A stretch of 64,000 nucleotides of DNA from Pseudorhodoferax sp. Leaf267 (GTDB lineage: Bacteria; Pseudomonadota; Gammaproteobacteria; Burkholderiales; Burkholderiaceae_C), in the NCBI RefSeq assembly GCF_001422405.1, contig NZ_LMMV01000012.1:164830-228829 (forward strand), given 5' to 3'. The notes under the pieces were generated by a model. That model saw only the letters and a program-made list of their open reading frames with translations. It was not told the origin of the DNA and did not search any database. How positions within the stretch are numbered: the first letter of the stretch is position 1; the number at the start of each line of letters is the position of its first letter. Shown one piece after another: positions 1 through 9,551 of the stretch. The position numbers and the translations under genes are program-made.

Positions 1-77
1 TCGTGATGGGTCGCGTGATCGTAGCCGTGGACGGGCCGCAGAATGGCGGCTCAGCCCTCACAACCAACGAGACCACC

Positions 78-1421
78 ATGCCCGCTCCCTTCGTTTCCAA
101 AGTCGCCACCCTCGCCGCCGCGGTGGCCCTGCTCGCCGCTGGCGCCGCGCAGGCGCAGAGCACCGCCCCGGTGCCGCCGGCCATCGACCAGGCCTACACG
201 CAGCTCATGGCCGCGCCCGCCATCGCGCGGCTGCTCGACGCCGTCAAGGCCGACCACGAGCGCTCCATCGAAGACCTGAAGCTGCTGGTCGAGATCGAGG
301 CGCCACCGTTCAAGGAACAGAGGCGGGCCGAGGCTTTCCTCGCGCGCATGAAGGCCCTGGGCCTGGCGGACGCGCGCATCGATGCCGAGGGCAACGTGGT
401 GGGCCTGCGCAAGGGCACGGGCAACGGCCCCGAGCTGCTCGTCTCCGCGCACCTGGACACCGTGTTCCCCGCTGGTACCGACGTGAAGGTCAAGGAGCGT
501 GACGGCAAGCTGTATGCGCCCGGCATCTCGGACGACACGCGTGCGCTGAGCGTGCTGCTGTCGTGGATCAAGGTGCTCAACGACCACCAGATCCAGACCG
601 TGGGCGACCTCATGATCGTGGGCAACGTGGGCGAGGAGGAGCTGGGCAACCTGCGCGGCATGAAGGCGCTGTTCCGCGAGCACCTGGACATCGACGGCAT
701 GGTCGGCATCGAGCCCTCGGTCGACGGCACGGTGCTGACGCTGGGCACGGCCAGCCACCGCTACGAGTTCACGTTCAAGGGCCCGGGCGGCCACAGTTTC
801 GCGGCCTTCGGCCAGGTGCCCAGCGCGATCCACGGCATGGGCCGCGCCATCGCCAAGATCGCCGAAGTGCAGACGCCGACCTTCCCCAAGACCACGTTCA
901 CCGTGGGCACGGTGGGCGGTGGCACCTCCGTCAACACCATCGCGCCGGACGCGCGCATGGCCGTGGACATCCGCTCCGACGCCATGGGCCCGCTGCTGGA
1001 GACCGAGAAGAAGATCCTGGCCGCCGTCGACGCGGCCGTGGTCGAGGAGAACAAGCGCTGGGGCGTGGACACGCTCACCGTGTCGAACAAGCTCATCGGC
1101 GACCGCCCCGGCGGCCAGACGCCGACCGACTCGCCCATCGTGCAGGCGGCCGTGCGTGCCAACGCGGGGTTCGGCCACAAGACCCTGTTCCGCGGCGCCA
1201 GTACCGACGCCAACGTGCCCATGTCGCTGGGCATCCCGGCCATCATCGTCGGCGGCGGTGGCAAGACCGGCGGCTTCCATGCGCTCAGCGAGTGGATCGA
1301 TCTGACCGATGCCTGGAAGGGCGCGCAGAACTCGCTGGTGACCGTGTTGGGGCTGGTGGGCGTGCAGGGCGTCAGTGCGCCGGTGCTGGAGAAGCGGGCG
1401 CCGCGGGCGGCGGCGAAATAA
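78..1421 (+). CDS. Exported M20-family metallopeptidase
   Basis: The product is a 447-residue zinc-dependent peptidase or amidohydrolase of the M20 type, probably periplasmic. Residues 1-27 form a signal peptide (Lys8, then an Ala/Leu-rich core ending AAQAQ). The metal site is visible: SAHLDT with His125, GISDD with Asp152/153, the catalytic pair in GEEELG (Glu186/187), a further acidic ligand in GIEPS, and a late His in GGFHALSEW. The region between them is the usual lid/dimerisation insert (GPGGHSF motif). The ATG at 78 is preferred because the signal peptide begins there; an in-frame extension to base 3 adds a polar segment with no signal character. The substrate cannot be told from sequence. 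It is convergent with the sox genes. Confidence 0.85.
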   Translation: MPAPFVSKVATLAAAVALLAAGAAQAQSTAPVPPAIDQAYTQLMAAPAIARLLDAVKADHERSIEDLKLLVEIEAPPFKEQRRAEAFLARMKALGLADARIDAEGNVVGLRKGTGNGPELLVSAHLDTVFPAGTDVKVKERDGKLYAPGISDDTRALSVLLSWIKVLNDHQIQTVGDLMIVGNVGEEELGNLRGMKALFREHLDIDGMVGIEPSVDGTVLTLGTASHRYEFTFKGPGGHSFAAFGQVPSAIHGMGRAIAKIAEVQTPTFPKTTFTVGTVGGGTSVNTIAPDARMAVDIRSDAMGPLLETEKKILAAVDAAVVEENKRWGVDTLTVSNKLIGDRPGGQTPTDSPIVQAAVRANAGFGHKTLFRGASTDANVPMSLGIPAIIVGGGGKTGGFHALSEWIDLTDAWKGAQNSLVTVLGLVGVQGVSAPVLEKRAPRAAAK

Positions 1422-1431
1422 GTTCACTGAA

Positions 1432-1456
1432 GCACCTTCGGCTTCGCCTGCGGTGC
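1432..1456. terminator. Weak hairpin between convergent genes
   Basis: A 5-bp stem (gcacc/ggtgc) with further partial pairing inside lies in the 65-base gap between the convergent peptidase and soxA. There is no T-run on either side, so intrinsic termination is doubtful. It is the only structure seen in this gap. Confidence 0.3.
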
Positions 1457-1486
1457 GAGCTTGCTTGGGGCGGCCCGGCGCTGCGC

Positions 1487-2248
1487 TCAAGGCCGCACAG
1501 CCGGCGTCTCCAGCGCCATGCCCTGGGCGCGCTGCATCAGGTACAGCTCCAGCTCCACGAGTTCGGCTGCGCCGAAGGGCGGTGCCTCGGCGCGCACACC
1601 CGTCATGCAGTTGCGCAGCCGCCGCTGCAGCGAGCCCATGCCCTGCCATTCGAGCCGGTACACGGGGTAGCCGGTCGGGTGCGCCTGCGGGATCGGGTTG
1701 CCGGCCAGCCGCTGGCCCGCCTGGCCGTCGTGGCACTGCGCGCACGACAGGTCGATCTGGCCGATGCGGCGTGCATAGACGGCCTGGCCGCGTTGCGTGA
1801 AGGGGGCCAGCCGGGCATCGTCCGGCGGCGCGATGGACAGGCCGCGCGACTGGTGGGCCACGTAAGTCTCCATGCTCAGCAGCGGCTGGCTCTCGGCCGC
1901 CCAGGGCGCGGCCTGCTGCTGCGACTGGCGGCATTGCTGGATGCGCTGGGAGAGGTTCAACGGCAGCTTGCTTGCCGCGTCGAACGCCGGGTAGCGCGCC
2001 GCCACGCCGCGCATGGACTGTGCGGCATCGCCATGGCAGGACATGCAGGACTTCTGGTCGCGCCCCGCTGGCGCGCGCCACAGCGCCTCGCCTTCGGCCA
2101 CCCACAGCATGGCCGGGTTCTGGCTGTCGTCGCGCTGCATGGCCTGCGTGGCCGGGCCCATGTACGACAGGCCGGAGCGACGCGTGTCGGTCTGCGCCCA
2201 CCCGGGTGCCAGCAGGCAGGCCAGCGCGAGCACGCCCCAGCGTTTCAT
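1487..2248 (-). CDS. soxA: SoxA, di-haem c-type cytochrome of thiosulfate oxidation
   Basis: SoxA with SoxX forms the cytochrome that oxidatively couples a sulfur compound to the cysteine of carrier SoxY in the periplasm. The 253-residue protein has a signal peptide (residues 1 to about 19) and two haem-attachment motifs, CMSCH at 68-72 and CAQCH at 169-173, so it is the two-haem form. Cys214 in RNCMTGVRA matches the SoxA cysteine that ligates the active haem and carries persulfide. The ATG overlaps the soxZ stop by four bases. It is the last gene of the operon; the usual next gene, soxB, is absent, and a peptidase gene on the other strand follows after 65 bases. Confidence 0.9.
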   Translation of the reverse strand: MKRWGVLALACLLAPGWAQTDTRRSGLSYMGPATQAMQRDDSQNPAMLWVAEGEALWRAPAGRDQKSCMSCHGDAAQSMRGVAARYPAFDAASKLPLNLSQRIQQCRQSQQQAAPWAAESQPLLSMETYVAHQSRGLSIAPPDDARLAPFTQRGQAVYARRIGQIDLSCAQCHDGQAGQRLAGNPIPQAHPTGYPVYRLEWQGMGSLQRRLRNCMTGVRAEAPPFGAAELVELELYLMQRAQGMALETPAVRP

Positions 2249-2568
2249 GCGACGAGGTTCAACGCCACCGTCTGCGTCTGCGCGAAGCCGTTGTCGCCTT
2301 CCCAGCGAAAGGTCAGCGTGCCGCTGGCCTCGGCGCGCACGAAGAAGGCGACATAGGGGTTCGCCGCGACGGCCGGATGCAGCTCGGCGCTGAACACGGT
2401 CTTGCCGTCGAGCTGGCAGCTCAGGCGCCGGATGATGTCGCGCGGCACGGTCTGGCCGCCGTCGTTGACGCGGTAGCCGGTCTCCATAGGGTGGGCGATG
2501 GTGGTGCGCACCTCGAAGACTTCGCCGCGGCGCACCTGGGGCGGGATGTGGATCAGGGTTCTGGCCAT
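2245..2568 (-). CDS. soxZ: SoxZ, sulfur carrier partner subunit
   Basis: A 107-residue protein without a signal peptide, matching SoxZ in length and pattern: an early PPQVRRGEVFEVRTTI strand, central HPMETGYR, and a C-terminal immunoglobulin-like half ending in FRWEGDNGFAQTQT. SoxZ pairs with SoxY and is normally exported with it by SoxY's Tat signal. It lies seven bases after soxY and overlaps soxA by four bases, so expression of the three is coupled. All expected SoxZ landmarks appear intact. Confidence 0.9.
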   Translation of the reverse strand: MARTLIHIPPQVRRGEVFEVRTTIAHPMETGYRVNDGGQTVPRDIIRRLSCQLDGKTVFSAELHPAVAANPYVAFFVRAEASGTLTFRWEGDNGFAQTQTVALNLVA

Positions 2569-2575
2569 GGGTTCT

Positions 2576-3010
2576 TCACTCGATGCAGGCGGCCAGCGTG
2601 ACGATCACGTCGACCGTGTGTGACCAGGCCGTGCCGTCGCTCAGCAGCGCCACGGCCACCAGTTGCTGCGAGGTGGCGAGGCGGATGCGCGTGGAGGCCG
2701 CGGCGCGGGCCGCGTCGGGGCCGAAATGGAACACGACCACGTCGCGCTGCGGGTTGCGCTCGTTGAACAACGCGATGGACTTCACGTGGTCGGCGGCCGT
2801 CATCGGGCTGTCCACGCTCAGCGTCACGGGCACGGCATTGCCGTTCTCCACCAGCGTGGAGATGTCGAGCTTCACCTTGCCGGGCTGCGGCGCCCTGCCG
2901 CCCGCGAAGGCGTTCACGGCAGCGGCCAGGTCGCCCGTGGCGGCGCGGCCGGGCCGCACGAACACCAGCCCGGCGGCCAGGGCCAGCGTCGTTCTGCGCT
3001 GCAAGCTCAT
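2576..3010 (-). CDS. soxY: SoxY-like carrier protein with atypical C-terminus
   Basis: SoxY is the periplasmic protein to which sulfur intermediates are attached during thiosulfate oxidation. The 144-residue product has a short twin-arginine-like leader (LQRRTTLALAAGL) and the SoxY fold segments, including a VTLSVDSPM strand and a late SHTVDVIVTL strand. Canonical SoxY ends in the flexible Gly-Gly-Cys-Gly-Gly arm. This one ends TLAACIE: the cysteine survives (Cys142), but the glycines are replaced by alanines and an Ile-Glu tail. The reading frame through the stop was checked base by base. It may be a divergent SoxY or a SoxYZ-like carrier with another cargo. It sits four bases after soxX and seven before soxZ. 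Confidence 0.8.
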   Translation of the reverse strand: MSLQRRTTLALAAGLVFVRPGRAATGDLAAAVNAFAGGRAPQPGKVKLDISTLVENGNAVPVTLSVDSPMTAADHVKSIALFNERNPQRDVVVFHFGPDAARAAASTRIRLATSQQLVAVALLSDGTAWSHTVDVIVTLAACIE

Positions 3011-3014
3011 GCGT

Positions 3015-3455
3015 TCAGTCCTTCAAGGTCACGAGATACGCCACGACATCCTCGATCTGCTGCGCGTCCAGCAGAGGCTTGCCGCGCCAGGCCGCACCGA
3101 CCTGCTGCAGGCCGTCCACGCGGTAGTAGGCCGGCATCAGGCTGCCAGGCATCAGGCGCTGCGGGTCCACCAGCCGCAGCCGCAGCTGGCCCGCGTTCCA
3201 GCGCGCGCCGGCACCGGCCAGGGTGGGCGCCAGGTCGCCCTGGAACCGTTCCTCGGCCATCGGCGCGGAATGGCACAGCAGGCACAGGCCCAGCTGCCGG
3301 TTCGCCACGATGGCGCGGCCACGCGCGGCGTCGCCCTGCTTGCCGCCCAGCGGCGCGGTGATCGCGTCGCCGACGACGGCATAGGGCGCGAGCGCCTGCG
3401 CGGGCGCCAGGGCCGGCAGCGCGGCCAGCAGCAGGGCAGGCCACCGCAGGGTCAA
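3015..3455 (-). CDS. soxX: SoxX, mono-haem c-type cytochrome
   Basis: SoxX accepts electrons within the SoxXA complex. The 146-residue protein has a signal peptide (residues 1 to about 20), one haem motif CLLCH at 58-62, and a probable axial Met in GSLMPAYY (Met107). The start is TTG at 3455; it overlaps the TGA of the upstream molybdopterin subunit in the four bases TTGA, which implies translational coupling. A TTG start is supported because it places the signal peptide exactly at the N-terminus. It belongs to the six-gene minus-strand operon. Confidence 0.88.
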   Translation of the reverse strand: MTLRWPALLLAALPALAPAQALAPYAVVGDAITAPLGGKQGDAARGRAIVANRQLGLCLLCHSAPMAEERFQGDLAPTLAGAGARWNAGQLRLRLVDPQRLMPGSLMPAYYRVDGLQQVGAAWRGKPLLDAQQIEDVVAYLVTLKD

Positions 3456-5623
3456 GCTTTCTTCAGGCTGTGGTTCTTGAGCGGCAGGTCGCGGATGCGC
3501 TTGCCGGTGGCCGCGAAGATCGCGTTCAGCACGGCCGGCGCTGCCACCGCGATGGTCGGCTCGCCCACGCCGCCCCAGAAGCCGCCCGAGGGCATGCTGA
3601 TGGTCTCCACCGCCGGCATCTCGTCCATCTTGAGCACGGGGTAGGTGCTGAAGTTGTCCTGCTCAATGCGCCCGTCCTTCACCGTGCATTCGCCGTACAG
3701 CGCGGCCGACAGGCCGTAGGCGAACGAGCCCTCGACCTGCGCCTCGATCTGCTGCGGGTTCACCGCGTAGCCCGGGTCGGTGGCGGCCACGATGCGGTGG
3801 ATCTTCAGCACGCCGTCGTCGCTGACCGACACCTCGGCGCACGCCGCCACATAGCTGCCGAAGCCCATGGTCTGCGCAAGGCCACGGAAGCGCCCGGCGG
3901 GCGCCGGCTTGCCCCAGCCGCCGCGCTCGGCCGCGGCGTTCAGCACGGCCAGGTGCTTGGGGTGGTTGGCCATCAACTTGCGGCGCAGCGCCAGCGGGTC
4001 TTGCTTGGTCGCGTGCGCGATCTCGTCGATGAAGCTTTCCAGGTAGATCGCGTTCTGGTTCAGGTTCACGCCGCGCCAGAAGCCCGGCGGCACATGCGGG
4101 TTGCGCATGGCATGGTCCACCAGCAAGTGCGGCACGCTGTAGCCAATGGAGGCCTCCGGCCCCGGCGCGTTGAGACCCTGGAACACCACTGGGTCGCGCC
4201 CGTCCTTGATGTTCTGCGGAAAGATGCCGGCCACGATGGACTGGCCCGAGATGCGCATGTGCAGCGCCTGCAGGTTGCCCTGCGCGTCCAGCCCGGCCGT
4301 GAGCTTGCATTGGGTGACGGGGTGGTACAGGCCGTGCTGCATGTCCTCTTCGCGCGACCAGATCATCTTGACCGGCACGCCGGGCATCTGCTTCGCAATC
4401 GCGACCGACTGGCGCACCCAGTCGTGCACCGCGCCGCGCCGGCCGAAGCCGCCGCCCAGGTGGAGCTTGTAGACCTCGCACTTCTCGGGCGGCAGGCCGG
4501 CGGCCTCGGCGGCTGCTGCCAGGGCGGCCTCGCCGTTTTGCGTGGGCGTCCAGACCTCGCAGCGCTCGGGCGTCCAGCGCGCCGTGGCGTTCATGGTCTC
4601 CATGGTCGCGTGGTTCTGGTGCGGGTAGCTGTAGACCGCCTCGATGCGGCGCGCGGCGCTGGCCAGTGCAGCCTTGGCGTCGCCATTGCTGTTGCCCACC
4701 ACCGCCTGCTCGGCGGTCAGCCCGGCCTTCAGCACCTGGGCGAACTCGGCGCTGGTCGCCTTGGCATGCTCGCCGAGATCCCACTCGATGGGCAGCGCGT
4801 CCAGCGCGGTCTTGGCGCGCCACCAGGTGTCGGCCACCACGGCCACGGCGTTGTCGTTCACACGCAGCACCTTCTTGATGCCAGGGCGCTTCTCGATGGT
4901 GGCCGCGTCGAAGCTCTTGAGCTTGCCGCCGAACACCGGGCAGGCCTTGATGGATGCGTTCAGCATCCCGGGCATGGTCAGGTCCATGCCGTAGACCTGC
5001 TTGCCCGTCACCTTCTCGGCCGTGTCCAGCCGCGCCAGGCGCTTGCCGATCAGCGTCCAGTCCTTCGGGTCTTTCAAGGGCGCGTCGGCCGGTGGCGTGA
5101 GCTTGCCGGCGGCCACGGCGACCTTGCCGTAGGTGGTGCTGCGGCCCGAGGGCTGGTGCGTGATCACGCTCTTGGCCGCGCGGCATTCGGCCACCGGCAC
5201 CTTCCAGCCGTCAGCGGCTGCCTGCACCAGCATCACGCGCGCGATGGCGCCGCCCTTGCGCACATAGTCGTGCGACTCGCGGATGCCGCGGCTGCCGCCG
5301 GTGGAGAAGTTGCCCCAGGCCCGCTTGCGCGCCAGGTTCTGGCCCGGCGTGGGGTATTCGGTCGTGACCTTGGCCCAGTCACATTCGAGCTCGTCGGCCA
5401 CCAGCTGGGCCAGCCCGGTCAGCGTGCCCTGGCCCATCTCGGAGCGCGCGATGCGGATGACGATGGTGTCGTCCGGCTTCACCACGACCCAGGCGTTCAC
5501 CTCGTCGGGCAGCGGCGTCTGTGCCAGGCCCTTGCGCGGGATGTGGAAGCCCACGACCAGCGCGCCGGCCGTGGCCGCAGTGCTGCCGAGGAAGCGGCGG
5601 CGGGTGGACATCAGGGCGCTCAT
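3452..5623 (-). CDS. Molybdopterin-binding subunit, IorB-type xanthine dehydrogenase family
   Basis: A 723-residue large subunit of a periplasmic molybdenum hydroxylase of the isoquinoline 1-oxidoreductase/aldehyde dehydrogenase type. It opens with a twin-arginine signal (STRRRFLGS, residues 6-14). A hammerhead domain starts near [12 protein letters not shown], the cofactor-binding loop GGGFGRRG is in the middle, and the catalytic glutamate is in GGVGEPTI near the C-terminus. The ATG at 5623 overlaps the stop of the iron-sulfur subunit (ATGA). Family members usually pass electrons to a c-type cytochrome; here the genes directly downstream encode SoxX and SoxA rather than a dedicated cytochrome subunit. 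The substrate is unknown; an aldehyde or N-heterocycle is typical for the family. Confidence 0.88.
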
Positions 5624-6123
5624 GTCACGCTCCCGTCCACGTGCTGGATCGCCAGCGCCGCGCTCTTGGTGTTGCCGCCGGCCGCCACCACCTTGATCGC
5701 CGCACGCACGCGGTTGTAGGTGCCGCAGCGGCAGATGTTGGTCATGGCCTCGTTGATGTCCTGGTCGGTGGGCTGCGGCTTGGCCTTGAGCAGCGCCGCG
5801 GCGGCCATCACCATGCCGCACTGGCAGAAGCCGCACTGCGGCACGTCCAGCGCCACCCAGGCCTTTTGCACCGGGTGCGAGCCATCGGGCGACAAGCCCT
5901 CGATGGTCACGATCTTCTCGTTCGGCTCGATGGTGGAGACAGGCCGCACGCAACTGCGCGTGGGCACGCCGTCCAGGTGCACGGTGCAGGCCCCGCAGGC
6001 GGCGATGCCGCAGCCGTACTTGGTGCCGGTCAGCCCGAGCTGCTCGCGCAGCACCCACAGCAGTGGGGTGTCGGGTTCCACATCGACATCGCGTGCGACG
6101 CCGTTCACGTTCAGTTTCGCCAT
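5620..6123 (-). CDS. [2Fe-2S] subunit of molybdenum hydroxylase, IorA-type
   Basis: A 167-residue electron-transfer subunit carrying two [2Fe-2S] clusters. The plant-ferredoxin-type site is [17 protein letters not shown]; the second cluster comes from CGFCQCGM and ICRCGTY. This is the full small-subunit length. Partners of this class have no signal of their own and are exported with the Tat-signal-bearing large subunit. The ATG at 6123 was chosen over upstream extensions because it begins the conserved MAKLNVNG strand and has an AGGAG ribosome site. It is the first gene of the operon; the 158-base gap to divergent phoD must hold its promoter, but I recognise no clear -35/-10 pair there. Confidence 0.9.
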
Positions 6124-6281
6124 CGGGTGAGCTCCTGGTTCTTGTGGGGACAGAGGCCGCGGCAGTGCTGCACCGGCTCTGCGCGGCGCAGTATGCGCCG
6201 AATGTGTTGCCCGATGCACGCCCGTCGCAAAGCGCAGCACTACAGTGGGTCAATTGACAAGCGCCACGCAGGAGCCACGCA

Positions 6282-7862
6282 ATGCCCGCCGAACGCACCC
6301 TCGACCGCCGCGCCTGGCTGCAACAAGCTGCCGCGGCTGCCACCACCCTGTGGCTGCCCCGCGCAGCCCGGAGCCAGCCGCGCCTCACGGACGACCCGTT
6401 CACGCTGGGCGTGGCCAGCGGCTCGCCGCGCGCCGATGGCGTGGTGCTGTGGACGCGGCTGCATCTGCCGGGCGCGGTGATCGGCAGCGACGCCGTCACG
6501 CTGCGCTGGGAAGTGGCCCACGACGAGGCCTTCACGCGCATCGCCCAGCGCGGCCAGGTGCAGGCGCTGCCCGACCTGGCCCACAGCGCGCATGCCGAAG
6601 TGCAAGGCCTGGCGCCCGACCGCTGGTACTTCTACCGCTTCATGGCCGGCGACGCCGTGAGCCCCACGGGCCGCACGCGCACGCTGCCCGCGGCTGACGC
6701 GCCCGTCACACGCCTGCGCCTGGCCTACGCCTCGTGCCAGCGCTGGGAGCACGGCTACTTCAGCGCCTACCGGCACATGGCAGAAGAAAACCTGGACCTC
6801 GTGCTGTTCCTGGGCGACTACATCTACGAATACCCGACGGCTGCGCAGCCCGTGCGCATCCCCTCCGGCGGCTGGGTGCTGACGCTGGACGACTACCGCC
6901 AGCGCTATGCGCTGCACAAGAGCGAGCCGGAACTGCAGCGCATGCACGCCGCCTGCCCCTGGCTCGTGACCTGGGACGACCACGAGGTGCAGAACGACTA
7001 CGCCGGCAGCCATGTCGGTCAGGGCGGCCCGGCGGTGGCCGATTTCGCGGCCCGCCGCGCGGCCGCCTACCAGGCCTTCTACGAGCACATGCCCTTGCGT
7101 GCGAGCGTGCTCACGCGCGCATTCGCGGGCCTGGCCTCGGGAGCCGAGATGCGCATCCACGGCCAGCTGTCCTGGGGCCGGCTCGCATCGCTGATGCTGC
7201 TGGACGCGCGCCAGTTCAAGAGCGCCCAGGCCTGCACGCCCGAGGGCCGGCCCGGCTCGGCCACTCTCGACCCGCAGACGTGCGAGACCTGGGCCGACCC
7301 CGAACGCAGCATGCTCGGCACCGCGCAGGAGCAGTGGCTGGACCAGACGCTGGCCACCCAGGGCGCGGCCCATGTGTGGAACTTCGTCGGCCAGCAAAGC
7401 CTGCTGGGCCAGCGCGGCTTTCGCACCGCGTCGGGGCAGCGCCTGTGGAACGACGGATGGGACGGCTACGCCCCGGCTCGCCGCCGGCTGACCGATGCGC
7501 TGCAGCAGCACCGTGTGGCCAACCCGGTCTTCCTGGGCGGCGATGTGCACGAGAACTGGGTGGGCCATGTGAAGGCCGATTACGCCGATCCGGCCAGCGC
7601 CAGCGTGGGGGTGGAGTTCTGCGGCACCAGCATCACTGCGCGCGCATCTGCCAACCCACGCACGACCGAGGTGCTGGCGCAGAACCCGCATTTCGTGTTC
7701 GCCGACGCGCAGCGGCGCGGCTATGGGGTGGTCGAGTGCACGCCGCAGTTGCTGACGACGCGGTTGCGTGTGCTGGACGACGTGACCCGGCGCGACACGC
7801 AGGCCGAGACGCTGGCCAGTTTCGTGGTGGAGGCGGGCAGGGCGGTGGTGGAGCGGGCCTGA
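6282..7862 (+). CDS. phoD: PhoD-family alkaline phosphatase/phosphodiesterase
   Basis: A 526-residue exported metallophosphatase that releases phosphate from mono- and diesters. The N-terminus has a twin-arginine pattern (TLDRRAWLQQ, residues 6-15) followed by an Ala-rich core. PhoD landmarks in order are the fibronectin-like N-terminal domain beginning FTLGVASGSP, then LGDYIYEY near 176-183, TWDDHE near 230-235, and LGGDVHENW near 420. The ATG at 6282 has AGGAG eight bases upstream. It is divergent from the molybdenum hydroxylase and its stop is only seven bases from the end of convergent spoVR, with no terminator between. PhoD enzymes are commonly phosphate-regulated; I could not find a convincing PhoB site upstream. 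Confidence 0.88.
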   Translation: MPAERTLDRRAWLQQAAAAATTLWLPRAARSQPRLTDDPFTLGVASGSPRADGVVLWTRLHLPGAVIGSDAVTLRWEVAHDEAFTRIAQRGQVQALPDLAHSAHAEVQGLAPDRWYFYRFMAGDAVSPTGRTRTLPAADAPVTRLRLAYASCQRWEHGYFSAYRHMAEENLDLVLFLGDYIYEYPTAAQPVRIPSGGWVLTLDDYRQRYALHKSEPELQRMHAACPWLVTWDDHEVQNDYAGSHVGQGGPAVADFAARRAAAYQAFYEHMPLRASVLTRAFAGLASGAEMRIHGQLSWGRLASLMLLDARQFKSAQACTPEGRPGSATLDPQTCETWADPERSMLGTAQEQWLDQTLATQGAAHVWNFVGQQSLLGQRGFRTASGQRLWNDGWDGYAPARRRLTDALQQHRVANPVFLGGDVHENWVGHVKADYADPASASVGVEFCGTSITARASANPRTTEVLAQNPHFVFADAQRRGYGVVECTPQLLTTRLRVLDDVTRRDTQAETLASFVVEAGRAVVERA

Positions 7863-7869
7863 ATCGGTT

Positions 7870-9405
7870 TCAGGTTTTGTCGTCCGTGCGCCGCCGCTTC
7901 TCGGCGCGCTGCTCGGCGATCAGTTCCACCGAGCCATCGGCGTTCTGCCGCTCCAGCCGCACGTTGAAGCCCCACAGCGTGGCCAGGTGGCGCAGCATGG
8001 TGGTGCTGGACTCGCCCAGCGGCCGGCGCTGGTGCGCGAAGTGGCGCACGGTGAGCGAGCGGTCCCCGCGCAGGTCCACGTTCCACACCTGCAAATTGGG
8101 CTCGCGGCTGCCCAGGTCGTATTGCTCCGAGAGCTGCCGGCGCAGCGCGCGGTAGCCGTTTTCGTCGTGGATGGCCTGGATCTCCAGCTTGCCGCGGCTG
8201 TCGTCGTCCAGCACCGAGAACAGGCGGAAGTCGCGCATCAGCTTGGGCGACAGGTACTGCGCAACGAAGCTCTCGTCCTTGAAGTTCTGCATGGCGAAGT
8301 CGAAGGTCTTGCGCCAGTCCGAGCCCGCGATCTCCGGGAACCACTCGCGGTCTTCGGCCGTCGGATCCTCGCAGATGCGGCGGATGTCGCGCCACATGGC
8401 AAAGCCCAGCGCGTACACGTTGATGCCCGAGAAATGCGGGCTGTTGTAGGCCGGCTGGTAGACCACGTTGGTGTGCGACTGCAAGAATTCCATCATGAAG
8501 CCGTCGCTGAGCCGGCCTTCGTCGTACAGCGTGTTGAGGATGGTGTAGTGCCAGTAGGTGGCCCAGCCCTCGTTCATCACCTGCGTCTGGCGTTGCGGAT
8601 AGAAATACTGCCCCACCTTGCGCACGATGCGCACCACCTCGCGCTGCCAGGGCTCCAGCAGCGGCGCGTTCTTCTCGATGAAGTACAGCAGGTTTTCTTC
8701 CGGCTCCTTGGGGAAGCGCGCCTCCTGGGCGCGCTGCTCGGCCTCGGCCCGCGGCGGCAGCGTGCGCCACAGGTCGTTGACCTGGGCCTGCAGGTATTCC
8801 TCGCGCTCCTTCTGGCGCAGCGTTTCCTTTTCCAGCGACAGCTTGGGCGAGCGCTTGTAGCGGTCCACGCCCACGTTGGTCAGCGCGTGGCAGGCGTCGA
8901 TGAGCCGCTCCACGGCCTCCACGCCGTGGCGCTCCTCGCACTGCGCGATGTAGTTCTTGGCGAACACCAGGTAGTCGACGATGGCGTCGGCGCTGGTCCA
9001 CTGCTTGAACAGGTGGTTGCCCTTGAAGAACGAGTTGTGGCCGTAGGCCGCATGGGCGATCACCAGCGCCTGCATGGGCAAGGTGTTCTCGTCCATGAGG
9101 TAGGCGATGCAGGGGTTGGAGTTGATGACGATCTCGTACGCCAGCCCCATCTGCCCGCGCTTGTAGCGGTTTTCCGTCGCCAGGAAATGCTTGCCGAAGG
9201 ACCAGTGGTGGTAGTAGACCGGCATGCCGATGGAGGCGTAGGCGTCCATCATCTGCTCGGCGCTGATCACCTCCAGCTGGTGCGGGTAGCAGTCCAGCCC
9301 GTAGCGGTGGGCGACCTGGCGAATGGCCTCGTCGTATTCCTCGATGGCCTCGAAGGTCCATTCGGAGCCTGCGGGCAGGGGCTTGGCGGTGGTCTTGGTC
9401 AGCAT
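7870..9405 (-). CDS. spoVR: SpoVR family protein
   Basis: A 511-residue cytoplasmic protein of the SpoVR/YcgB family. It is recognisable from GLDCYPHQLEVISAEQMMDA, the YYHHWSFGKHF block and the NEGWATYWHY block near the middle. The biochemical role is not established; the family is tied to sporulation in Bacillus and to stationary-phase/stress operons in Gram-negatives. It is the third gene after prkA and yeaH. The start at 9405 (MLTKTT) gives the usual N-terminus; an in-frame ATG at 9450 would add 15 residues and cannot be excluded. Convergent with phoD. Confidence 0.88.
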   Translation of the reverse strand: MLTKTTAKPLPAGSEWTFEAIEEYDEAIRQVAHRYGLDCYPHQLEVISAEQMMDAYASIGMPVYYHHWSFGKHFLATENRYKRGQMGLAYEIVINSNPCIAYLMDENTLPMQALVIAHAAYGHNSFFKGNHLFKQWTSADAIVDYLVFAKNYIAQCEERHGVEAVERLIDACHALTNVGVDRYKRSPKLSLEKETLRQKEREEYLQAQVNDLWRTLPPRAEAEQRAQEARFPKEPEENLLYFIEKNAPLLEPWQREVVRIVRKVGQYFYPQRQTQVMNEGWATYWHYTILNTLYDEGRLSDGFMMEFLQSHTNVVYQPAYNSPHFSGINVYALGFAMWRDIRRICEDPTAEDREWFPEIAGSDWRKTFDFAMQNFKDESFVAQYLSPKLMRDFRLFSVLDDDSRGKLEIQAIHDENGYRALRRQLSEQYDLGSREPNLQVWNVDLRGDRSLTVRHFAHQRRPLGESSTTMLRHLATLWGFNVRLERQNADGSVELIAEQRAEKRRRTDDKT

Positions 9406-9491
9406 TTCAATGTTCCATGCCGCGGTTCGAATGGCCGCGGAGCAGGCCATGCCAGGGCACCCGCGGATCTGGCTCTGCCAGGCCGCTGGGT

Positions 9492-9551
9492 GCGCCCCCC
9501 CCCGCGTAGCAGAGGGGGGTTGGCGCAGCGCGCAGCGCGGAGACTGGGGGC
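9492..9551. repeat. C-run/G-run hairpin element between yeaH and spoVR
   Basis: A run of nine C (9495-9503) faces runs of six G (9514-9519) and five G (9546-9550), with a GCGCAGCGCGCAGCGCG tract between. Two mutually exclusive hairpins can form, C-run with the first G-run or with the second. It lies in the 153-base gap between yeaH and spoVR on their coding strand. From general familiarity, similar GC-rich elements are scattered between Comamonadaceae genes; only one copy is seen here, so repeat status is not shown. It could reduce read-through into spoVR. Confidence 0.45.

Follow-up and report, generated by a model that had tools for sequence, protein, structure and literature searches.

A six-gene operon joining a molybdenum hydroxylase to SoxXYZA-like proteins hints at an undescribed oxidation route for a carrier-bound sulfur compound

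Sox genes are often taken as markers of thiosulfate oxidation, and SoxYZ, the carrier of the canonical system (SoxXA-YZ-B-CD), contains no redox cofactor. Molybdenum hydroxylases of the xanthine-oxidase type attack a carbon beside nitrogen or oxygen in the cases known to us, and their usual sulfuration machinery is cytoplasmic. The name "SoxY-related AACIE arm protein" (TIGR04487) is used in the annotation of plasmids pNgVX and pNMS14P1, and searches of the open-access literature yielded zero papers on an AACIE-arm SoxY or a SoxY-related protein. Likewise, the operon analysed here was described in none of the titles and abstract openings that these searches gave, a scope outside which the subscription literature mostly falls. 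Two leads were set aside: the SoxYZ raised on mercaptosuccinate in Advenella has a single locus tag in the accessible part of the report and thus probably belongs to another family (PMC5373536), and in the accessible part of the Variovorax TBEA6 report, considered as an organosulfur lead, Sox appears only in a reference (PMC6370202).

In the window (the whole 64-kb stretch of Pseudorhodoferax sp. Leaf267 DNA that was analysed), the first-pass annotation had described a minus-strand operon of six genes, with 4-base overlaps at the Fe-S/Mo, Mo/soxX and soxZ/soxA joins and no gap above 7 bases. This layout can be read off the sequence, as overlaps of ATGA, TTGA (requiring a TTG start) and ATGA, respectively, and gaps of 4 bp between soxX and soxY and 7 bp between soxY and soxZ; the operon is intact and conserved in relatives. 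Its features, in window coordinates, are as follows.

5620..6123, minus strand: 2Fe-2S subunit of the molybdenum hydroxylase (Pfam Fer2 and Fer2_2 above cut-off)
3452..5623, minus strand: molybdopterin (Mo) subunit (Pfam MoCoBD_1 and MoCoBD_2 above cut-off)
3560..3562, minus strand: codon of Mo-subunit Glu688, aligned with the GEP-motif Glu of 8gy3_C
3015..3455, minus strand: soxX, monohaem cytochrome c (TIGR04485 above cut-off; haem motif CLLCH)
2576..3010, minus strand: soxY variant (TIGR04487 above cut-off)
2579..2593, minus strand: codons of the SoxY C-terminal arm AACIE with carrier Cys142 (C-x-[DE] arm, by row counts)
2245..2568, minus strand: soxZ, partner of SoxY (TIGR04490 above cut-off)
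1487..2248, minus strand: soxA, dihaem cytochrome c with a Cys-ligated active-site haem by homology (TIGR04484; two CxxCH)
1607..1609, minus strand: codon of SoxA Cys214, haem-ligand cysteine by homology (gap-free alignment with 1h31_A)
1649..1651, minus strand: codon of SoxA Glu200 (YRLEW), replacing the Lys/Arg/Ser of thiosulfate-type SoxA

SoxX (74.7 bits on TIGR04485, curated cut-off 61), SoxZ (81.9 bits on TIGR04490, curated cut-off 76) and SoxA (227 bits on TIGR04484, curated cut-off 110) all passed their models, and the dN/dS of the six genes ranged from 0.12 to 0.63 across six comparisons. An Rfam scan of window positions 1-9500 matched zero RNA elements, and in the 1300-6500 region a single terminator-like site and no site resembling a promoter were found, below the numbers in shuffled sequence.

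The two-domain 2Fe-2S subunit and the MoCoBD_1/MoCoBD_2 subunit place the hydroxylase in the xanthine-oxidase superfamily, and neither subunit passed any NCBIfam cut-off. By eye, the leader of the Mo subunit is twin-arginine-like. Its closest solved relative by sequence is 8gy3_C, an aldehyde dehydrogenase large subunit, and Glu688 is presumably the catalytic Glu of xanthine-oxidase-type enzymes. It is preceded by the clade-specific Phe682-Trp683, with Trp683 found in 120/120 XYZA-linked Mo rows and Pro occupying that position in 11 of the 14 distant paralogues. In a 64-row Mo tree, the SoxYZ-linked rows (27 of the 120 XYZA rows by random draw, all 13 YZ and both YZA) fell in one clade with an SH-aLRT of 100. 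The same clade held 17 Mo copies without SoxYZ in the stretch, chosen for having no SoxY match beside them, of which two were contig-cut just after Mo.

The linkage of Sox-like proteins with the Mo hydroxylase is found in Burkholderiales and named Alphaproteobacteria. Among 80 named loci with the closest SoxY, the Mo subunit lay just upstream of soxXYZ in 78, with the same gene order across betaproteobacteria and alphaproteobacteria, and the other two were contig-cut. In an order-level sample of 40 loci, Mo adjoined soxYZ in 34, 14 of which lacked soxXA, and four loci had XYZA with no Mo adjoining. These counts show that the Mo hydroxylase is a conserved partner of the modified SoxYZ, with its own dihaem SoxXA in most loci of the window subtype. 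Carriers of the operon include Polaromonas sp. JS666 (L187) as well as Duganella and Pseudorhodoferax isolates. Co-occurrence pointed the same way: at the threshold fixed beforehand and across 300 genomes of the order, a matching Mo subunit of at least 700 bits was present in 52/59 genomes with a TIGR04487 SoxY and in 4/241 others, or in 52/52 and 4/248 when the seven lowest SoxY scores were dropped post hoc; a fifth genome without a SoxY match (G245) carried a contig-cut Mo copy under the 700-bit line. As same-clade copies without SoxYZ and four genomes with Mo and no SoxY match were found, the Mo enzyme may work alone. No seventh conserved gene emerged: when the 40 order loci were clustered together with the window, the widest further family reached 16 of the 41 sources, and this family, by eye a TctC-type solute-binding protein, had no fixed place. 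In addition, an FccB-like flavoprotein (433 bits to 5n1t; FCSD domains) was present in 29 of the 80 named loci, in 28 of them paired with a cytochrome, and a 46% homologue of the flavoprotein lies on a contig other than that of the window.

The suggestion that soxB had been replaced by a peptidase is unsupported, because soxB was absent from loci of this operon type in all sets examined (0/80 closest named loci; no match in loci L051-L090) and neither the M20 peptidase of the window nor PhoD was present in the six relatives' loci checked, about 2-5 kb to each side. A search for soxB elsewhere in the genome revealed a separate canonical sox cluster that includes it. The first-pass annotation would have regarded the grouping as a chance neighbourhood had the canonical cluster lacked its own soxYZ and the hydroxylase-sox linkage been unconserved in relatives; the canonical cluster carries its own soxYZ, and the six-gene arrangement recurs. 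Across the sample, soxB was commoner among the 52 genomes with both the SoxY variant and Mo (37/52) than in the rest, and the 15 without a soxB match, which include drafts of 87-92% completeness (G100, G272 and G148), had SoxA in 14 cases.

The SoxY protein is a member of TIGR04487 (196 bits, cut-off 172) and fails the true-SoxY model TIGR04488 (87 bits vs a cut-off of 125), its arm reading AACIE rather than GGCGG. Alignments A1 and A2 showed no variation at Cys142, and a C-x-[DE] arm was found in 121/125 SoxY rows from loci with SoxA. Where the locus lacked SoxA, the residue directly after the arm Cys was Gly in 10/16 SoxY rows, as opposed to 1/125 where SoxA was present. Some relatives of the Mo/YZ type pass both TIGR04487 and TIGR04488 (e.g., L061).

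The active site of SoxA is likewise conserved in a modified form. Two CxxCH motifs occurred in 125/125 rows and Cys at the haem-ligand position in 124/125, together with Arg columns nearby (YR, 125/125; C-4, 125/125; C+5, 124/125). At C-14, a position whose role we transfer from TsdA by spacing, thiosulfate-type SoxA has Lys, Arg or Ser, and the four dihaem SoxA from soxB loci all had Lys or Arg, whereas Glu was found in 122/125 operon rows, 0/19 canonical rows and 0/11 others. Judged from these alignments, the replacement of the thiosulfate-binding Lys/Arg/Ser by Glu200 suggests a substrate other than thiosulfate, although an anionic substrate need not be barred by it.

Collectively, the operon probably forms one functional unit whose SoxY-bound substrate is not thiosulfate, and hints at an undescribed oxidation route for a sulfur compound, perhaps organic, on a carrier protein. 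Of the two ideas offered by the first-pass annotation, a sulfur-compound substrate of the hydroxylase is favoured by the retained SoxA Cys ligand, the invariant arm Cys and the sulfide dehydrogenase pair at 28/80 loci, whereas recruitment of the Sox proteins as electron acceptors is disfavoured (see below). We tentatively propose a dedicated periplasmic pathway that handles a sulfur compound on a carrier protein; the compound would most likely be an organic thiol or thione. In such a pathway, SoxXA would oxidatively couple the substrate sulfur to Cys142 of the SoxY arm (R-SH + HS-SoxY -> R-S-S-SoxY), with electrons passing to cytochrome c, and the bulkier, acidic AACIE arm would expose the attached group to the Mo enzyme, not to SoxB. 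The Mo enzyme would then hydroxylate the carbon adjoining the sulfur, so that the C-S bond breaks to give a carbonyl product and a persulfide left on SoxY, the sulfane of which would be taken off in some relatives by the flavocytochrome c sulfide dehydrogenase that the locus encodes, and elsewhere by other sulfur-oxidizing enzymes. This C-S-cleaving scheme itself is put forward with a little more reserve than the pathway as a whole; we know of no precedent for attack on a carbon within a protein-linked disulfide.

It is unlikely, though conceivable, that the cargo of SoxYZ is instead a reactive carbonyl, either a product or a substrate of the Mo enzyme, attached to Cys142 as a thiohemiacetal in the manner of the quinoprotein-associated SoxYZ-like carriers; SoxXA would then maintain the right redox state of the cysteine. 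The match of the Mo subunit to an aldehyde dehydrogenase, the 14/40 order loci with YZ and no XA, and the existence of NCBIfam TIGR04557, a SoxYZ-like carrier named for another class of periplasmic dehydrogenase, all agree with it. However, SoxY and SoxZ are not members of that family (49.9 and 41.4 bits, respectively, against a cut-off of 140), and a carbonyl ligand leaves the conserved SoxA site and the sulfide dehydrogenase pair unexplained.

With a lower probability still, SoxYZ could supply persulfide in the periplasm to restore the Mo sulfido ligand of the exported hydroxylase. SoxXA, together with the sulfide dehydrogenase pair of relatives, would charge Cys142 with sulfur from sulfide, for the arm to pass on to the Mo site, repairing the enzyme; if true, this would explain why a carbon-oxidizing enzyme is encoded beside proteins of inorganic sulfur metabolism but not beside soxB. 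XdhC/MobA-like genes are rare at linked loci (4/151, vs 6/15 at distant-paralogue loci), a weak fit to such resulfuration; at same-clade loci without SoxYZ, these genes were found in 0/17.

That SoxXA and SoxYZ serve as electron acceptors of the Mo enzyme is similarly improbable. In its favour, SoxXA are c-type cytochromes and the only cytochromes that the operon encodes, and elsewhere in the genome one of four further Fe-S/Mo pairs (L050) overlaps a long reading frame in which CxxCH occurs three times, likely a multihaem cytochrome, indicating that cytochrome-linked pairs exist too. Yet the cofactor-free SoxYZ is the steadier partner of the Mo enzyme and persists where XA is missing, and the 14 Mo/YZ loci without XA had no CxxCH gene on the operon strand within 4 kb. 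Moreover, the three other Fe-S/Mo pairs have no convincing cytochrome nearby (two CxxCH frames near the L048 pair were deemed spurious by eye), and plain electron transfer does not need the SoxA Cys ligand that is retained.

There is an equally small chance that the operon serves thiosulfate oxidation as an accessory pathway, with the Mo enzyme in the role of SoxCD or SoxB, as the homology of SoxXYZA to thiosulfate-oxidizing proteins and the raised frequency of soxB among carrier genomes would allow. Against it stand the 15/52 carrier genomes without a soxB match and the deviation of Glu200 and the AACIE arm from the thiosulfate type. Of the two soxY genes of B. diazoefficiens, soxY1 alone is required for thiosulfate, according to the introduction of PMC5748708, and the dispensability of soxY2 is relevant only if soxY2 is of the AACIE type. 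Finally, an unselected or decaying neighbourhood has a negligible probability: TIGR04487 matches are patchy (51/299 genomes of the family), but the order is kept in 78/80 named loci, dN/dS is well below 1 and the operon is whole in the three congeneric genomes giving a match, while chance is ruled out by the named loci, the 34/40 order loci and the 52/59 vs 4/241 genomes.

The AACIE-type protein thus bears on how sox genes are read. Eighteen genomes of the order sample had a soxA match and no soxB match, and 14 of them carried this SoxY, so a lone soxA, soxX, soxY or soxZ match may mislead; this SoxY type marks a common Sox variant that is probably not for thiosulfate. The carrier-protein pathway proposed above, if true, would join molybdenum-dependent hydroxylation of carbon to the covalent carriage of sulfur, which are combined in no described pathway known to us, and would offer a place to seek a route by which organic sulfur is turned over. 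Both the altered arm and the changed charge in SoxA are testable handles on what decides Sox substrate choice.

Compared with known systems, the FccAB/SoxEF-type pair is encoded at 28/80 named relatives' loci and is absent from the operon of the window. Similar to the TIGR04557 carriers, by their name, a Sox-type carrier appears to have been adopted by a periplasmic dehydrogenase, whereas the operon has separate SoxY and SoxZ, SoxXA and a Mo enzyme, and scores far under that cut-off. The SoxY of the window belongs to TIGR04487 by score, a name that covers a single protein. With IorAB and the periplasmic aldehyde dehydrogenase type (8gy3), the operon shares the Fe-S and Mo pair, its domains and the GEP glutamate, while its Mo subunit belongs to a clade of its own, marked by Phe-Trp ahead of the glutamate, and stands usually, not always, beside SoxYZ. 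In common with canonical Sox, SoxX, SoxZ and SoxA pass curated models, and the carrier arm cysteine and the SoxA Cys ligand are kept; in contrast to it, the locus is without SoxB, the arm is AACIE instead of GGCGG, SoxA has Glu in place of Lys/Arg/Ser, and a Mo hydroxylase adjoins the sox genes.

Inspection of the window sequence confirmed the six tightly joined minus-strand genes (about 1487-6123; Fe-S subunit, Mo subunit, soxX, soxY, soxZ, and soxA) claimed in the first-pass annotation, with a TTG start being required for soxX if its 4-base overlap with the Mo gene holds. The family scan revealed xanthine-oxidase-type hydroxylase domains in the Fe-S and Mo subunits, and a sequence search retrieved 8gy3_C, the large subunit of an aldehyde dehydrogenase, as the nearest solved Mo subunit (237 bits). 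SoxX, SoxZ, and SoxA passed the NCBIfam equivalog cut-offs, and SoxY scored below the cut-off of the true SoxY model and above that of TIGR04487. Comparison with six relatives gave dN/dS values of 0.12-0.63 across the six genes, which were low in Fe-S and Mo and highest in SoxZ.

The whole operon was present in three congeneric genomes, with Mo subunits 90-92% identical to that of the window. TIGR04487 matches were detected in 59/300 genomes of the order (E <= 1e-20; 18 above the curated cut-off), 51/299 of the family (E <= 1e-25; 38 above), and 48/398 of the phylum (E <= 1e-25; 15 above), the looser counts taking in other SoxY types. From the 65 order matches listed, 40 loci were picked for score and variety, and none of the 40 contained a SoxB match.

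Gene arrangements in the 40 order loci
Fe-S/Mo/X/Y/Z/A: 19/40
Same six genes, Fe-S/Mo on the opposite strand: 1/40 (L089)
Mo/Y/Z without XA: 14/40 (L054 without Fe-S, at a contig end)
X/Y/Z/A without Mo: 4/40 (L070, L077, L078, L082)
Other: 2/40 (L087, L090)

The gene set was divided between two loci in genomes G131, G169, and G263, and X and A lay apart from the rest in G180. Among 20 loci taken mainly from the phylum search, 13 carried Fe-S/Mo/(cytochrome)/FccB/X/Y/Z/A, two carried Fe-S/Mo/X/Y/Z/A, and five (L159-L163) lay beside soxB and had GGCGG arms. A contig scan with alignment A2 gave at least 587 relatives, of which the best 80 were kept, a choice that favours the window's subtype; Mo was located upstream of X-Y-Z, directly or with a flavocytochrome pair between, in 78 of these loci, the other two (L231 and L238) stopping at contig ends. 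Fe-S was found in 70 of the 80, soxB in none, and an FccB-like flavoprotein in 29, with a cytochrome alongside in 28. The organisms include Polaromonas sp. JS666, Duganella, Massilia, Noviherbaspirillum, and Rhizobacter, as well as Azorhizobium, Ancylobacter, Belnapia, and Microvirga, and the operon with the flavocytochrome pair resides on plasmids of Neorhizobium galegae, Methylobacterium sp. NMS14P, and Roseomonas marmotae. The locus flavoprotein matched flavocytochrome c sulfide dehydrogenase 5n1t (433 bits), contained FCSD domains, and shared two cysteines with it in an alignment read by eye; a 46% homologue is encoded elsewhere in the host genome. In a single case, mddA (methanethiol S-methyltransferase; L142:17636-18370) was observed on a Methylobacterium plasmid, some 8 kb away from the operon.

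A soxB gene (857 bits) was found on a different contig of the host genome (6.5 Mb, 27 contigs), in a separate sox cluster with its own GGCGG-type soxY and with soxZ, soxX, soxA, and soxC identified by similarity to relatives. Compared with three relatives, this canonical soxA (L046:9538-10145, contig C1) shows a change of reading frame and has lost a middle stretch in which the CxxCH motif for haem would lie; if the defect is not an assembly error, the operon SoxA is the sole intact SoxA found in the host genome. About 50 inserted bases, which include a stop codon, break the soxC gene (L046:6202-7578, same contig). A 28-base piece of the insertion occurred three times in the genome at <= 2 mismatches (reversed control, 0), and a 14-base core, also matched in 12/100 shuffles, is present immediately downstream of the operon (window 1447-1460); the insertion may be a small dispersed repeat.

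Co-occurrence was analyzed in the same 300 order genomes throughout, as raw genome counts uncorrected for relatedness. TIGR04487 SoxY and a Mo subunit of >= 700 bits, a line set after the scores had been seen to fall from 720 to 661 bits, occurred together in 52 genomes, SoxY only in 7, Mo only in 4, and neither in 237. The 7 SoxY-only genomes had the 7 lowest SoxY scores, and their post hoc omission, at a point without a score gap (101 vs 97 bits), gave 52/0/4/244. In one of them, G198, a Mo subunit of 45% identity is encoded immediately upstream of SoxY. This divergent Fe-S/Mo/Y/Z/A arrangement (L301 and L302; Mo about 45% identical) has a weak SoxY, with E = 3.6e-22 in G198 and no match at 1e-20 in G125. 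The 52 genomes comprised both arm types, with SoxB (E <= 1e-60) in 37 and SoxA (E <= 1e-15) in 51, the exception being G210, where SoxY is near a contig end; moreover, 14/18 genomes with soxA and without soxB had TIGR04487 SoxY.

Among 125 distinct SoxY rows whose locus also contains SoxA, 121 had a C-x-[DE] arm, and the arm Cys was followed by I (52), L (36), V (21), T (13), W (1), G (1), or A (1). Of 16 rows from loci lacking SoxA, 10 had Gly after the Cys; for the six remaining rows, SoxA lay at another site of the genome (G131, G169, G263, G143, and G180) or the row ended with the contig (L255). One SoxA outside the locus was found in each of five soxB-negative genomes that have only Mo/YZ loci (G016, G039, G065, G075, and G148); in G039 and G016, for which the surroundings were read completely, it is grouped with SoxX, GGC-type SoxY, and SoxZ. 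In soxB-negative genomes, SoxX, GGC-type SoxY, SoxZ, and monohaem SoxA were clustered in L117 and L122, the latter holding SoxY and SoxZ in a single frame, and this is another soxB-less Sox set, distinct from the Mo-linked operon.

Passages of Grabarczyk and colleagues (PMC4423706) describe thiosulfate in TsdA as bonding with Arg109, Arg119, and Ser127. By spacing from the Cys ligand, Arg109 would correspond to Lys208 of 1h31_A and Glu200 of the window SoxA, around which these two proteins aligned without gaps. This column was E in 122 of 125 distinct operon SoxA rows (A 1, S 1, gap 1; L066, L224, and L087, the last with another SoxY type), S in 18 and A in 1 of 19 canonical SoxA, and G in 10 and A in 1 of 11 others; in five soxB loci outside the order, dihaem SoxA had YRLK (3/4) or YRLR (1/4) and monohaem SoxA had YRVS. 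Judged from this spacing comparison with TsdA, canonical, and soxB-locus SoxA, the operon SoxA keeps the predicted S-S-formation residues and reverses the charge at the putative substrate position, alongside the arm change.

For the molybdenum enzyme, a 64-row tree built by a quick method placed SoxYZ-linked and same-clade unlinked Mo rows in one clade (SH-aLRT 100), separate from all 14 distant paralogues. Trp683 preceded Glu688 in all XYZA-linked (120/120), YZ-linked (13/13), YZA-linked (2/2), and same-clade unlinked (16/16) rows, and the distant paralogues had Pro (11), Met (2), or Ile (1) there. Since unlinked copies also bear this signature, it is not proof of SoxYZ use. Extra same-clade Fe-S/Mo pairs (L314, L325-L332, L334, and L335; Mo 55-67% identical to the window's) had no SoxYZ within the fetched stretch, and their genomes also had a TIGR04487-type SoxY match.

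Across loci, the hydroxylase with SoxYZ is the steadiest element. Lacking a redox cofactor, SoxYZ would be expected to present a group attached to it covalently, and that group is expected to be organic because this hydroxylase class acts on carbon. Where SoxXA is present, a thiol or thione would most simply be joined by S-S conjugation; hydroxylation of the carbon next to sulfur would then free a carbonyl and leave a persulfide, consistent with a sulfide dehydrogenase in the locus of some relatives. We infer this whole chain, from SoxYZ cargo to persulfide; an alternative of low probability is a role as persulfide donor for Mo resulfuration.

The name 'SoxY-related AACIE arm protein' already exists in NCBIfam and in record annotation. 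None of the titles and abstract beginnings searched in an open-access library describes the operon. A SoxY family study, according to passages of PMC11237559, dropped sequences without the GGC motif, by which AACIE-type proteins would be excluded. In Bradyrhizobium diazoefficiens, two soxY genes are described in part of PMC5748708, of which thiosulfate needs only soxY1; our guess is that soxY2 is of the AACIE type. Within reach of the literature search, the operon is a real, conserved, and so far undescribed variant of Sox-type carriage.
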